From an uncultured Planctomycetota bacterium (GTDB lineage Bacteria; Planctomycetota; Brocadiia; CAIUPP01): 44,648 nucleotides of DNA. The stretch covers positions 1 through 44,648 of the forward strand of contig CAIUPP010000094.1 in NCBI GenBank assembly GCA_903901045.1, read 5' to 3'. Shown piece after piece: positions 3,020 to 23,488 of the stretch. The notes under the pieces were generated by a model that worked only from the letters and a program-made list of their open reading frames with translations, ran no database searches and was not told the DNA's origin. Every line of letters begins with the position of its first letter. Positions within the stretch are counted from its first letter, which is position 1. Position numbers and translations under genes: made by a program.

Positions 3020-3940
3020 TCACTCCATGACAAACGGCGCAGCGTCGGTGGAAACCGTGCGCGACGAACGCTTGGCGACGGCGGGCGGGAGGCGAAAAAG
3101 CCTGGAATGAGCGCCGGGGCGATAGAAACGCAGGCCGTTGATGCCCCGGTGCTCCATCCGCTCGCGAATCTGCGCGGCGGTGAGTTTCGCCGGCTCCGCG
3201 CGGTCGGAGGCGCAGAGATACCCCCACGGCTCGCGGAAGGAGGGCATCCGCACCCAGTAGCCGCTCACATGGTCGAAAACGCGCCCCAGCGTGGCGCGCA
3301 CGGTGAGGAACAAGTCGCGGCTGATCTCGTCCACCGGGCCGGACTGCGTGACGAGAATTCCCCCCGGGCGCAGCCGCCGCCGGGCGGCGCGGTAGAATTC
3401 GACGGTGTACAGGAGCATGGAGGGCTCCTGCGCGCGGGGCTCGGGCAGGTCGCAGAAGATCACGTCGAATTGCCGCGTGCCGCGTTCGAGAAAGCCGCGC
3501 GCATCGGCGAAACGCAGCCGCGTCCGCGCGTCCTCATACACCCCCGCCGACCAGCTCTTCAGATGCTTCCGGCTCAGCGCGACCAGTTCGGGATCGAGGT
3601 CCACCATCCACGCCTCGCGCACGCAGGGATGGCGCAGCACTTCGCGCAGCGTGGCCCCCTCGCCGCCGCCGGCGATCAACACGCGCTCCGGGTTCGGGTG
3701 CGCCAACATCGCGGGATGCACCAGGCACTCATGGTACCGCGCCTCGTCCGCGGCGCAGGATTGCAGGCTGCCATCCAGGAACAGAGCGCGCCCGCCGCGC
3801 GTCAGGTCGTAGATGCCGACGTGCTGGAGTGCCGTTTGTTTCTCGCAGAGGACGCGGTCAATCCGGTACTTCGCAATGGGCGGCACCGGATCGCGGTCGT
3901 AGACCCAGAGGCCGGAAGCTGTTTTGTGAACGAGGGTCAT
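3020..3940 (-). CDS. speE: Spermidine synthase-type aminopropyltransferase
   Basis: Transfers an aminopropyl group from decarboxylated AdoMet to a diamine or polyamine. The 306-aa protein has an N-terminal beta domain (about 1-65) and a Rossmann methyltransferase-like domain. GGGEGATLRE (91-100) is the dcAdoMet-binding motif. VDLDPE (113-118), ADARGFLE (145-152) and CDLPEP (163-168) are the following nucleotide and acceptor-site motifs. DGSLQSCAADEARYHE and LVHPA (56-77) resemble broad-specificity and thermospermine-type enzymes as well as classic SpeE, so the acceptor is uncertain. The ATG has only a weak ribosome site. It is separated from the other polyamine genes (19.7-23.4 kb), and it makes sense only if a SpeD in the cell makes dcAdoMet. 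Confidence 0.88.
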   Translation of the reverse strand: MTLVHKTASGLWVYDRDPVPPIAKYRIDRVLCEKQTALQHVGIYDLTRGGRALFLDGSLQSCAADEARYHECLVHPAMLAHPNPERVLIAGGGEGATLREVLRHPCVREAWMVDLDPELVALSRKHLKSWSAGVYEDARTRLRFADARGFLERGTRQFDVIFCDLPEPRAQEPSMLLYTVEFYRAARRRLRPGGILVTQSGPVDEISRDLFLTVRATLGRVFDHVSGYWVRMPSFREPWGYLCASDRAEPAKLTAAQIRERMEHRGINGLRFYRPGAHSRLFRLPPAVAKRSSRTVSTDAAPFVME

Positions 3941-19707: not shown

Positions 19708-20862
19708 ATGATGGGCCTGAAGACTCCCTACTACCTGATTGACGAACGCAGGCTCCTGAGGAACCTCAGGATCATTGAGCGCGTCCGGCGCCGGTCGGGG
19801 GCGAAGTCGGTCCTGGCGCTGAAATGCTTCTCCACCTGGTCCGTCTTCGGCCTGATGCGGCGGTACATGGACGGGACGACGAGCAGTTCGCTCCTGGAGG
19901 CGCGCCTGGGGCATGAGAAGTTCGGCAAAGAAGTACACGCGTACAGCGTCGCCTGGACGTCCGAGGAGGTGCGGCAGGCGCGCGCGTTCGCCGATAAGAT
20001 CATCTTCAACTCGGTCTCGCAACTCACGCGCTTCCAGAAGGAAGCCCGGGGATTGAGCGTGGGGCTGCGCGTGAATCCGGGCTTCAGTTGCAGCCATTTC
20101 GATCTGGCGGACCCGGCGCGGCGCTACTCGCGCCTGGGGGTGCGCGACCGGCGGGCGCTGCTCAAAGCCGCCCCCCGGATCCACGGGGTGATGTTCCATT
20201 ACAATTGCGAGAATGACGACTTCGAGAGCTTCGCGGCGACGCTCGACGCGATCAGCCGCGATTACGGCGCGCTGCTCAAGGGCCTCGACTGGGTGAGCCT
20301 GGGGGGGGGGATTTATTTCACCAAGGAAGGATACCCGCTCGACCGGTTCTGCGCGAAACTCAAGGAGTTCGCGGAGCGGCACGAGGTGCAGGTGTACCTG
20401 GAGCCGGGCGAAGCGGTGATCACGCGCTGCGCCGAACTGGTGACGACGGTGCTGGACATCGTGCGCAATGAGCGGGAGATCGCCATCGTGGATGCCTCCA
20501 CGGAGGCGCACATGCTGGACCTGCTGATCTACCGGCTGAGCGCGAAGATCGAAGGGGCCGTGAGCGAAGGGGACAGGCACCTTTTCCAAACGGCCGGAAA
20601 AGGAGCCAGTCCCCAGGGCTCCACTTACGTCGTGGCGGGGCGCTCCTGCCTCGCGGGGGATGTTTTCGGGACGTACCGCTTCCCGAAGAAGTTGAAGGTG
20701 GGCGGCATCATCAGGCTGGCCGATGCGGCCGGCTATACGATGGTGAAGAAGAACTGGTTCAACGGGCTGCCGATGCCGGCCATCGCCGTGCGGCGGCTGA
20801 ACGGAAGAATTGACGTGGTGCGTCGGTTCGATTACGCCGATTATGCAGGCAGTCTGTCCTAA
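19708..20862 (+). CDS. nspC: Carboxynorspermidine/carboxyspermidine decarboxylase
   Basis: This PLP enzyme of the alanine-racemase fold (fold type III) releases CO2 from carboxynorspermidine or carboxyspermidine, giving norspermidine or spermidine. The protein has 384 aa from ATG 19708 (an ATG also follows at 19711), opening MMGLKTPYYLIDERRLLRN. Lys39 in VLALKCFS is the PLP lysine. FHYNCEND (163-170), SLGGGIYF (197-204), LEPGEA (231-236) and RSCLAGD (312-318; active-site Cys314) are the family motifs. Residues about 287-304 (EGDRHLFQTAGKGASPQG) come from a palindromic repeat inserted in frame. The dehydrogenase gene follows after 16 bp, making the expected two-gene pathway. Confidence 0.93.
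   Translation: MMGLKTPYYLIDERRLLRNLRIIERVRRRSGAKSVLALKCFSTWSVFGLMRRYMDGTTSSSLLEARLGHEKFGKEVHAYSVAWTSEEVRQARAFADKIIFNSVSQLTRFQKEARGLSVGLRVNPGFSCSHFDLADPARRYSRLGVRDRRALLKAAPRIHGVMFHYNCENDDFESFAATLDAISRDYGALLKGLDWVSLGGGIYFTKEGYPLDRFCAKLKEFAERHEVQVYLEPGEAVITRCAELVTTVLDIVRNEREIAIVDASTEAHMLDLLIYRLSAKIEGAVSEGDRHLFQTAGKGASPQGSTYVVAGRSCLAGDVFGTYRFPKKLKVGGIIRLADAAGYTMVKKNWFNGLPMPAIAVRRLNGRIDVVRRFDYADYAGSLS
20569..20614. repeat. Palindromic repeat embedded in frame in nspC
   Basis: GGGGACAGGCACCTTTTCC, a short loop, then GGAAAAGGAGCCAGTCCCC. This is an imperfect 46-nt hairpin inside nspC, related to the intergenic hairpin at 26865-26921 (GGGGTCAGGC...ACTTTTC). Confidence 0.78.
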
Positions 20863-20878: not shown

Positions 20879-22243
20879 GTGAAGAAGAATGTGCTGATCA
20901 TTGGGGCCGGGGGCGTCGCGCACGTCGCCGCGCACAAGGCGGCCATGAACAACGACGTGCTGGGGGACATCTGCATCGCCTCGCGCACGCTCTCCAAGTG
21001 CGACGAGATCGTGGAGAGCGTCAAGCGCAAGAAGCACGTCAAGGACGCCTCCAAGCGGCTCTACTCCCGCCAGATCAACGCGCTGGATGTCCAGGCGACC
21101 GCGAAACTCATCCGCGACAGCCAGGCGAGCATCGTTATGAACCTCGGCCCCGCCTTCGTCAATATGACGATCCTCGAAGCCTGCCTGCAAACCGGCGCAA
21201 CCTACCTGGATACGGCCATCCACGAGGACCCGGACAAGGTGTGCGAAAGCCCCCCCTGGTATGCCAACTACGAGTGGAAGCGCAAGGAGCGCTGCAAGGA
21301 GAAGGGGCTGAACGTCATCCTGGGGGTGGGATTCGACCCCGGCGTGGTGAACGCCTACTGCGCGCTCGCGGCCAAACGCTATTTCGACCGGATCGAGACG
21401 ATCGACATCATGGACGTCAACGCCGGACGCCATGGCAAGTATTTCGCCACGAACTTCGACCCGGAGATCAACTTCCGCGAGTTCATCCGCGTCTGGGCGT
21501 GGATCGATCGCCAGTGGAAGATGTACCCGACGCACTCCGTGAAGCGCGAGTACGATTTCCCGGTGGTCGGCCCGCAGCCGATCTATCTCACCGGGCACGA
21601 CGAAATCCACTCGCTCTCCAAGAACATCGACGCCAAGGACATCCGTTTCTGGATGGGATTCGGCGACCACTACATTAATGTCTTCACCGTCCTGCGCACG
21701 CTCGGACTGCTCTCGCACCTGCCGGTGCGGCTCACCACGGGGCAGGAGGTGGTGCCGCTGAAGGTGGTCAAGGCGCTGCTGCCGGATCCCAAGACGCTGG
21801 CGCCGGGGTACGTGGGGAAGACCTGCATCGGCACGTTCGTCCGCGGCTGGAAGGGACGCAAGAAGCGCGAGATCTTCATCTACCAGGTCTCCGACCACAA
21901 GGCGTGCTACGAGGAGGTGGAATCGCAGGGGATCAGCTACACCGCCGGGGTGCCGCCCGTCGCCGCGGCGATGCTGGTGGCGAAGGGAATCTGGAACCCG
22001 CGCACGATGGTGAACGTGGAGGAACTCGACCCGGAGCCGTTCATCGAGTTGCTCGACACGCTGGGGCTGCCGACCCAGATCAAGGAGATCAAGCCGCACG
22101 GCCCGCACTCCTTCGACGGACGGGTGATGGAGGTGCAGAAGGAGATCGACGGGGCGACAGCAACGGTGACGATCTCCGCCGCCAACCCGATGATCGCGGT
22201 GACGCCGAAGGCGGCCAAGGGGAAGGCGCGGAGAAAGGCGTGA
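20879..22243 (+). CDS. Carboxynorspermidine/carboxyspermidine dehydrogenase (saccharopine dehydrogenase-like)
   Basis: Reductively condenses aspartate semialdehyde with a diamine (1,3-diaminopropane or putrescine) to the carboxytriamine that NspC decarboxylates. GTG 20879 is chosen because the protein then opens (M)KKNVLIIGAGGVAHVAAHK like the family, with GGAGGGTGGG upstream; ATG 20843, inside nspC, is an alternative. The protein has 454 aa: an N-terminal Rossmann domain (GAGGVA about 8-13; CIASRTLSKCDEI follows), MNLGPAFVNMTILEACLQTG, YLDTAIHED, and GVGFDPGVVNAYCALA. Most relatives are near 400 aa. The last roughly 50 residues, ending KAAKGKARRKA, are an extra basic tail. Which diamine is used cannot be read from the sequence. 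Confidence 0.92.
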   Translation: MKKNVLIIGAGGVAHVAAHKAAMNNDVLGDICIASRTLSKCDEIVESVKRKKHVKDASKRLYSRQINALDVQATAKLIRDSQASIVMNLGPAFVNMTILEACLQTGATYLDTAIHEDPDKVCESPPWYANYEWKRKERCKEKGLNVILGVGFDPGVVNAYCALAAKRYFDRIETIDIMDVNAGRHGKYFATNFDPEINFREFIRVWAWIDRQWKMYPTHSVKREYDFPVVGPQPIYLTGHDEIHSLSKNIDAKDIRFWMGFGDHYINVFTVLRTLGLLSHLPVRLTTGQEVVPLKVVKALLPDPKTLAPGYVGKTCIGTFVRGWKGRKKREIFIYQVSDHKACYEEVESQGISYTAGVPPVAAAMLVAKGIWNPRTMVNVEELDPEPFIELLDTLGLPTQIKEIKPHGPHSFDGRVMEVQKEIDGATATVTISAANPMIAVTPKAAKGKARRKA

Positions 22244-22298: not shown

Positions 22299-22340
22299 AA
22301 GCGCATCGGGCTGAGGCACGCGCCTCAGCCCGATGCGCTT
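22299..22340. terminator. Bidirectional hairpin terminator between convergent polyamine genes
   Basis: A 19-bp perfect stem (AAGCGCATCGGGCTGAGGC) with a 4-nt loop. It lies 56 bp after the dehydrogenase stop and 18 bp from the end of the minus-strand speD gene. There is no long U-run, only short TTAA or TTTAATAA flanks. Confidence 0.75.
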
Positions 22341-22357: not shown

Positions 22358-22726
22358 CTACTTGCGAACGATGAAGCGGCTCTTGACCATCTTGGCGCCG
22401 AAGTATTCCTTGCAGAACTTCGTCGCGTCGGCCGGGTCGAACGACTTGCAGGAGAAGACGTTCAGATAAACGCTGTTCTTCCCCTCGCTGAAGTGCGCGC
22501 TGATGCAGCTGGTCTCGATCAACTGAACCAGGCTGTAGCCCGACGTGATCGGGTTCTTGTGACCGAAATGCTCGATCAGCGGCTCGCCAAAGCGCTTCAT
22601 CTTGATGCGCCGGCACAGTCTGCGAACGAACGTGTCAATCTTCTGGCGGCTCCGAATGCTTGCGGCATCGCAGTCGTGGAGATCCAGAATCAACTCGGCC
22701 CCGAAATCCTTGTGCGTTGCGCTCAT
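22358..22726 (-). CDS. speD: SpeD-family pyruvoyl decarboxylase, short divergent form
   Basis: SpeD proteins self-cleave at a serine to make a pyruvoyl cofactor and classically decarboxylate AdoMet. The start is ATG 22726 with AAGGAG upstream. The protein has 122 aa. Aligning to the Thermotoga enzyme by eye, ETSCISAHFSE (71-81) matches the cleavage block: Ser73 is the pyruvoyl precursor, His78 the processing His, and FSCK puts Cys93 at the proton-donor position. The HTWPE substrate motif is replaced by HFSE, losing the Trp-Pro that contacts AdoMet. GYSLVQLIE and LIEHFG are typical of this divergent branch. Some SpeD homologues are known to have become ornithine or arginine decarboxylases, which is a real option here. 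It lies 258 bp downstream of a second speD. Confidence 0.82.
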   Translation of the reverse strand: MSATHKDFGAELILDLHDCDAASIRSRQKIDTFVRRLCRRIKMKRFGEPLIEHFGHKNPITSGYSLVQLIETSCISAHFSEGKNSVYLNVFSCKSFDPADATKFCKEYFGAKMVKSRFIVRK

Positions 22727-22984
22727 TTCACCAACTCCTTTGAGTAGTTTGGGAGAGCGAAACAAGCACGGTGATCTCCGCGTTGTAGTATTTCGCCTTG
22801 AGACCCAGACCGCGGTGGCGGCGCTCAAGACGATTCCCCAGGACCCGGAGTGTCCCGGCTTACTCCTAACCCATGACCTTGCTAAAAGCCACCCATCTGC
22901 GTGGTGACAGGCGCCACGCAAACGCCCGCGGTCGGAAAGGCTGCGACGTCTGCCAGTCCGGGTACAAATTTGCAATACGCTGCG

Positions 22985-23410
22985 TCAGACCCTCACCCCC
23001 CGCTTGTGCTCCGACAACTGAATCCGCTTCGGCGCAAACGCCTTGCGCAACGCCGGGATCGCGGCATGGGGGTTGACCTTGTTGCCGGTGAAAATATCGA
23101 GCGCGGCATAACCGTACTCGGGCCAGGTGTGGATGGAGATGTGCGACTCGCTGAGCACGGCGACGCCGGCAATGCCGCTGGGGGAAAACTTGTGGAGCAT
23201 GACTTTCAGGAGGTTGGCGCCGCAGTCGCTGACGGCGTCGGTCAGCGCCTTCTCCGTGCGCTGGAGGTCGTCGAGGTGTTTCGCGCCCCAGAACTCCAGG
23301 AGGATGTGCGTCCCGGCGCAGGAGCACTTCTGCTCCGCGCTATGCGCCCTTGCGGGCCGCCTCGTGCGGCGTCCTTGCGCCGCAGCCGTCCTACTCCCCA
23401 ACGTCGGCAC
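22985..23410 (-). CDS. speD: S-adenosylmethionine decarboxylase-like protein lacking the catalytic cysteine
   Basis: The open frame starts at GTG 23410 (TTG 23401 is an alternative); no ATG is available, and the first roughly 30 residues do not match the family. The protein has 141 aa. LHKFSPSGIAGVAVLSESHI then SIHTWPEYGYAALDIFT is canonical: Ser89 is the pyruvoyl precursor, His94 the processing His, and HTWPE is intact. The next expected residues, FTCG, read FTGN, so Gly109 replaces the proton-donor Cys, and there is no Cys after residue 63. The codons are TTC ACC GGC AAC, so this is not a frame error. It may be a decarboxylase with changed chemistry or a non-catalytic partner of the downstream SpeD. 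It has its own promoter and a leader of about 200 nt. Confidence 0.85.
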   Translation of the reverse strand: MPTLGSRTAAAQGRRTRRPARAHSAEQKCSCAGTHILLEFWGAKHLDDLQRTEKALTDAVSDCGANLLKVMLHKFSPSGIAGVAVLSESHISIHTWPEYGYAALDIFTGNKVNPHAAIPALRKAFAPKRIQLSEHKRGVRV

Positions 23411-23488
23411 CTTTCAGTTCAGTAAGCCACGCTTCCCGATGCGCGAAGCCCGGCATTCCCAAATCCGTCAAGAACCCAAACCACACAC

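Follow-up and report, generated by a model that had tools for sequence, protein, structure and literature searches.

The closest described counterparts of the locus analysed here are the adjacent or fused speD-speDC genes reported by Li, Liang, Phillips and Michael (2023, PMC10407285). Such arrangements occur in Desulfotignum, Omnitrophica OLB16, Atribacteria, Anaerolinea and Sumerlaeota, and those of Victivallis and Desulfobacter have a degraded C-terminal half. SpeDC proteins, of which there are at least 1,000 homologues, are recognised by a Gln, a Thr, a Phe and a Tyr around the cleavage site, with the Ser, His and Cys kept. The known ones function alone, and their genes adjoin casdh/casdc, for example in Electrothrix (PMC10407285). 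The same work describes the Cys as conserved across AdoMetDC, SpeDA and SpeDC proteins. Hybrid pathways have also been documented, in which CASDH/CASDC lead to spermidine, and AdoMetDC with an aminopropyltransferase leads to spermine (PMC11999265).

The window, i.e. the whole stretch of DNA that we analysed (44,648 nt), is one contig (C94) of a genome of 4.77 Mb that is 94% complete with 3% contamination. It encodes, in this order, nspC (+), casdh (+), SpeDC (-), SpeD1 (-), a GcvH-like protein (+), a DUF2520/Rossmann protein (+) and serine hydroxymethyltransferase (+). Gene order and orientations are identical in Planctomycetota bacterium isolate UR.bin147 (JAKJEM010000002.1, hereafter G001), which represents a second genus of the same family and is the sole genome of that family in the comparison. 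The adjacency of SpeD1 and SpeDC is thus kept in both genera. Both SpeD reading frames were confirmed on the minus strand, with a gap of 258 nt between them. The Pfam AdoMet_dc profile matches the upstream protein with 118.5 bits and the downstream one with 71 bits. The NCBIfam adenosylmethionine decarboxylase model gives 123.5 for the upstream protein, over its cut-off of 75.65, and 32.7, under the cut-off, for the downstream one. A near-perfect inverted repeat (AGCGCATCGGGCTGAGGC / GCCTCAGCCCGATGCGCT, window 22300-22339) lies between speDC and casdh, which converge there, and is probably a bidirectional terminator common to both genes.

The downstream gene (22358..22726, minus strand, 122 aa) encodes a predicted pyruvoyl-dependent L-ornithine decarboxylase, SpeDC. 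The protein has Gln68, Thr72, Phe79 and Tyr87 together with the pyruvoyl Ser73, His78 and Cys93, i.e. all four diagnostic residues and the equivalents of Ser63, His68 and Cys83 of SpeD. These seven positions are invariant in 15 aligned sequences (SpeDC and 14 relatives). There is a Ser at the Ser55 position, and the motif at the site of HTWPE is HFSE. Because every sequence feature expected of SpeDC is present, the non-HTWPE motif is best read as a mark of the substrate and the protein, judged by these residues, is not defective. We infer that the gene belongs to the known SpeDC family of pyruvoyl ornithine decarboxylases, with L-ornithine as the predicted substrate.

The upstream gene, SpeD1 (22985..23401, minus strand, 138 aa), encodes a homologue of class 1b AdoMet decarboxylases. 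Its best start is the TTG at 23401, which is preceded by AAAGG and common to the window and G001. The earlier note had placed the start at a GTG at 23410, which is not conserved, and we corrected it. The note had the state of the catalytic site right, with a Gly in clear codons instead of the catalytic Cys and the ESHISIHTWPE block kept. The codons GAT ATT TTC ACC GGC AAC AAG GTC AAC read D I F T G N K V N, with GGC at 23084-23086 in place of Cys83, and ESHISIHTWPEYGYAALDIFTGNKVNP has no counterpart of the Cys found after F-T in T. maritima SpeD. A second loss had escaped the note: the Ser55 position is occupied by Ala (GCC, 23168-23170). The SpeD1 of G001 reads DIFTGGRV at the Cys83 motif and has a Cys at the Ser55 position. 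A sequencing or assembly error at the Cys codon is ruled out, since the sister genome shows the same loss.

The rarity of these losses is apparent in an alignment of 112 SpeD-family sequences from Planctomycetota, Pseudomonadota, Myxococcota, WOR-3, phages and T. maritima. None of them lacks the pyruvoyl Ser63 or His68 (112/112 each). Cys83 is found in 109/112, the exceptions being the SpeD1 of both genera and a WOR-3 sequence (L070) whose frame is apparently broken there. Position 55 is Ser or Thr in 110/112, the exceptions being SpeD1 (Ala) and its G001 orthologue (Cys). SpeD1 has therefore two lineage-specific active-site losses, both of which are also seen in another genus of the family. 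The sole gap in the HMMER alignment of SpeD1 with T. maritima SpeD falls at C83 in the motif. Closer relatives read FMCGDADP, a motif equal in length to that of SpeD1, which makes a pair of substitutions (C to G and G to N) as likely as a codon deletion. A compensating role for the Cys of SDCGANLL was rejected because this residue is also found in relatives that keep C83, and no alternative proton-donor residue was identified in SpeD1. The Cys of the T. maritima and human AdoMetDC is the proton donor in decarboxylation, while Ser55 (human Ser229) is required for self-processing. Losing both should nearly abolish activity.

The gene is nevertheless neither decaying nor a pseudogene, but maintained by selection. 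SpeD1 and its G001 orthologue share 65% protein identity with a dN of 0.29, a dS of 1.32 and a dN/dS of about 0.22. The dN/dS values between the same genomes are 0.25 for SpeDC, 0.18 for casdh, 0.18 for nspC, 0.28 for glyA and 0.31 for speE, all of these ratios being rough since a dS near 1 approaches saturation. A block of 22 residues from ESH to FTG, ESHISIHTWPEYGYAALDIFTG, is identical in both genera. The AlphaFold2 model of SpeD1 has a complete AdoMetDC fold, with a pLDDT above 90 for 98 of the 138 residues, and superimposes on T. maritima SpeD at 1.3 Å. Hence, SpeD1 has the class 1b fold, the pyruvoyl Ser, His68, HTWPE and the conserved Pro that marks bona fide AdoMetDC (PMC10407285), but lacks Cys83 and Ser/Thr55.

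We analysed the origin of the two genes with a SpeD tree built on 121 columns, a number that leaves its deep forks poorly supported. The SpeD1 proteins of the window and of G001 group together (100/99) inside a clade of Pseudomonadota and Myxococcota SpeD (100/94), next to a Myxococcota sequence (L038). Nearly all members of this clade have speE directly downstream. SpeDC groups instead with SpeDC proteins of phages and other Planctomycetota, far from that clade. The separate clades indicate that the pair consists of two separately inherited genes that were brought together, as read from the tree, and rule out a recent tandem duplication. Other genomes of the class have mostly one SpeD or none, usually beside speE, and no SpeDC. 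One of them encodes a very divergent second SpeD homologue (L035 6196-6549, G025:C20; KESALQLHTWPEQGEGFMTLLLYSCKD), which has a long branch in the tree. Four other Planctomycetota homologues (L107, L112, L114 and L116) have a Thr before the pyruvoyl Ser and FSC/YSC as in SpeDC, with HTWP or HCW instead of HF, and are by motif neither standard SpeD nor SpeDC. A phage contig (L136 2512-3351, IMGVR_UViG_3300035698_033216) carries adjacent SpeD and SpeDC genes between terminase-like and portal-like genes. Both of its proteins have hydrophobic signal-like N-termini. Its SpeD retains the Cys, which argues against decay of SpeD as the usual consequence of having SpeDC next to it.

These results change how the pair is to be described. 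The earlier note saw tandem paralogues with complementary defects. The first term is misleading given the well-separated clades, and the second does not hold, because SpeD1 is the only defective protein and lacks two residues rather than one. The residues given for the downstream protein (Ser73, His78, Cys93 and HFSE) were accurate, but the missing AdoMet motif that was counted as its defect is the SpeDC signature (PMC10407285). Of the proposed interpretation, the suggestion of a different substrate for the downstream gene is supported, since that protein has the sequence features of SpeDC. The note also held that the pair should not be rarely adjacent in related genomes, and adjacency is indeed found in the sister genus, in the speD-speDC neighbours and fusions described elsewhere (PMC10407285) and in the phage contig.

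The remaining polyamine genes frame what SpeD1 may do. The casdh gene (carboxy(nor)spermidine dehydrogenase, 20879..22243, plus strand, start set by comparison with G001) is convergent with SpeDC. It has Pfam saccharopine dehydrogenase domains and matches the NCBIfam carboxynorspermidine synthase model with 481.5 bits, under the 800-bit cut-off. The nspC gene (casdc, carboxy(nor)spermidine decarboxylase, 19708..20862, plus strand, start approximate) scores 435.5 bits with TIGR01047, over the cut-off of 409.05. It is, with a lysA-like gene, the only PF02784 member of the genome. Arginase/agmatinase was absent from the search of this 94% complete genome, and OKR_DC_1 gave sub-threshold matches only. 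No other putrescine route was thus found among the families searched (PF02784, arginase/agmatinase and OKR_DC_1).

The genome's only PF01564 gene encodes a SpeE-like polyamine aminopropyltransferase (3020..3940, minus strand) and has an orthologue in G001. The protein is closest to the T. thermophilus triamine/agmatine enzyme 1UIR (214 bits), with plant thermospermine synthase at 169 bits, and the catalytic Asp of its DLxxP motif is conserved in both genomes. In both genera DLPEP stands in place of the usual D..DP (window 3020-3940; L127), an Asp to Glu change at the amine site. The gene lies 19 kb from SpeD1. Aminopropyltransferases use decarboxylated AdoMet. SpeD1 is the only AdoMet_dc protein of the genome besides SpeDC, and class 2 AdoMetDC gave no match in these genomes, nor in the control genomes. 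The genome therefore predicts a working SpeD1 and its residues predict a non-working one.

Each of the two genes also has its own conserved leader. The SpeDC leader (22727..22872, minus strand, 146 nt) lies in the SpeD1-SpeDC gap and has a mean column identity of 90% to its G001 counterpart (L034 8366-8510, plus strand). Both sequences fold into the same long hairpin, in which 44/44 consensus pairs are kept (100%), two of them changed on both sides. The shuffling control gave 128/500, which is not decisive with two sequences only. Upstream reading frames are not kept, since the two sequences differ in length by 1 nt ahead of the ATG, and the leader is apparently non-coding. A model of it matches, across 75 genomes of the class, only the window genome and G001. 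It is a candidate cis-regulatory RNA, possibly polyamine-related, that appears limited to this family. The SpeD1 leader (23394..23488, minus strand, 95 nt) ends at the TTG start. It is 92% identical to its counterpart (G001:C211:47731-47822), although the SpeD1 proteins of the two genera share only 65% identity, and has one strong copy per genome. Its fold is no better than that of shuffled sequences. We sought known riboswitches in Rfam and found no match for either leader.

Our preferred explanation, to which we give a probability of roughly 0.4 and which we favour over that of a pseudoenzyme partner, is that SpeD1 decarboxylates AdoMet without the Cys. SpeDC would form its pyruvoyl group and decarboxylate L-ornithine to putrescine, as its family residues suggest, and CASDH and CASDC would form spermidine, with aspartate semialdehyde as the source of the added aminopropyl unit. 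SpeD1 descends from an ordinary AdoMetDC that was acquired from a proteobacterial-type speD-speE lineage, as the tree and the gene context show. In the ancestor of the family it lost the catalytic Cys and the hydroxyl of Ser/Thr55, and it has been maintained by selection with Ser63, His68 and HTWPE. It could then be a slow or differently assisted, Cys-independent AdoMetDC that feeds the SpeE-like enzyme, which might in turn make spermine or thermospermine. The role in the AdoMet branch is suggested because the SpeE-like gene is conserved and SpeD1 is the only candidate AdoMetDC left. It is also suggested by the dN/dS of about 0.22, the identical block, the conserved Pro and the speE-linked clade. 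Several points speak against a working SpeD1: the loss of both Cys and Ser55, the absence of a recognisable substitute for the proton donor, and the 19 kb that separate it from the SpeE-like gene, whose product has an unusual Glu (EP for DP) in the amine site, so that its own activity is putative.

A less probable, though serious, alternative sees SpeD1 as a pseudoenzyme that would form a heterodimer with SpeDC and in this way activate, stabilise or regulate it. AdoMet binding could for example tie putrescine synthesis to AdoMet supply. SpeD1 indeed combines missing catalytic residues and retained selection, as the trypanosomatid prozyme does, with an intact fold and an adjacency to SpeDC that both genera keep. 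There are precedents for both elements: one half is degraded in the SpeD-SpeDC fusions of Victivallis and Desulfobacter (PMC10407285), and a dead paralogue activates the trypanosome AdoMetDC about 1000-fold (PMC5201418). However, SpeDC proteins are known to need no partner (PMC10407285), the two genes lie 258 nt apart, each behind a conserved leader of its own, and the SpeE-like enzyme would be left without decarboxylated AdoMet. We probed the idea that the proteins complement each other like the halves of human AdoMetDC (SpeDC as the N-terminal half, SpeD1 as the C-terminal one), and in the structure alignment both models fall on the C-terminal half, which speaks neither for nor against it. 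Each active site in the T. maritima and human structures is formed across the dimer interface, Ser63 and Cys83 coming from one chain and Ser55 and His68 from its partner. With such cross-interface sites, a SpeDC homodimer would have two complete sites, and neither a SpeD1 homodimer nor a mixed dimer would have any. In the latter the Ser and Cys of SpeDC would face Ala and His, SpeD1 giving no Ser55 to the SpeDC site, and the Ser of SpeD1 would be without a Cys. This reasoning weakens a heterodimer of complementary defects.

We consider it unlikely that SpeD1 has acquired a new substrate or a reaction that dispenses with the Cys. There are several cases of a changed substrate among SpeD homologues (PMC10407285), and Ser63 and His68 are retained, but Li et al. 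expect the Cys at its position (PMC10407285) and the HTWPE motif for AdoMet is fully kept. There is still less to be said for a role of SpeD1 in assisting or dimerising the SpeE-like enzyme, in the manner of the N-terminal domain of human spermine synthase, which has a SpeD fold. The model of SpeD1 aligns with this domain (3c6k, Z 11.6, 100 aligned residues, 2.5 Å) and the source clade of SpeD1 is speE-linked. Yet any SpeD fold would match 3c6k (SpeDC gives Z 10.4), the speE gene is 19 kb distant and no fusion of the two was observed. Equally improbable is a relic decaying after CASDH/CASDC took over spermidine synthesis: the two active-site losses and a spermidine route independent of SpeD1 would fit, but the frame is intact in two genera with a dN/dS of about 0.22 and a confident fold.

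The novelty of the locus lies not in the adjacency of speD and speDC, known like their fusion from other genomes, but in the degenerate SpeD half in a genome that keeps an aminopropyltransferase in need of decarboxylated AdoMet. SpeD1 is the interesting part of the locus, since selection has preserved a protein from which the Cys and another active-site residue have gone, and the retained aminopropyltransferase has no other recognised source of decarboxylated AdoMet. If SpeD1 is active, it would represent Cys-independent pyruvoyl catalysis in nature. If it is inactive, a regulatory pseudoenzyme would be indicated for bacterial polyamine synthesis, a solution so far described for AdoMetDC only in trypanosomatids. 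We think it rather probable that one of the two applies: a natural AdoMetDC without the Cys and the Ser55 hydroxyl, or a prozyme-like bacterial SpeD pseudoenzyme that controls a pyruvoyl ornithine decarboxylase, in a mirror image of the Victivallis fusion.

The comparison with known systems places the two proteins differently. SpeDC shares with the described family (PMC10407285) the signature, the Ser/His/Cys triad, the size and the casdh/casdc neighbourhood, with no difference among the sequence features compared. SpeD1 resembles the class 1b SpeD of T. maritima (TM0655, 1TLU/1VR7) in fold (1.3 Å), sequence (43% identity), ESHISIHTWPE and the Pro marker, but differs from it in lacking the equivalents of Cys83 and Ser55. 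The gene set is that of the hybrid CASDH/CASDC and AdoMetDC/aminopropyltransferase spermine pathways (PMC11999265), here with an AdoMetDC without catalytic Cys. As in the known speD-speDC pairs and fusions, SpeD and SpeDC are encoded together and one is degraded, as it sometimes is there. In the fusions of Victivallis and Desulfobacter, however, the degraded half is the C-terminal one (SpeDC in Victivallis) and the AdoMetDC survives, whereas in the window it is the SpeD copy that has degraded, next to an intact SpeDC encoded by a gene of its own. Like SpeD1, the trypanosomatid prozyme (PMC5201418) is an AdoMetDC paralogue without catalytic residues that is kept by selection. The prozyme is unprocessed and pairs with an active eukaryotic class 2 AdoMetDC, whereas SpeD1 keeps the pyruvoyl Ser and the His, may therefore still be processed, and has a predicted ornithine decarboxylase as its neighbour.
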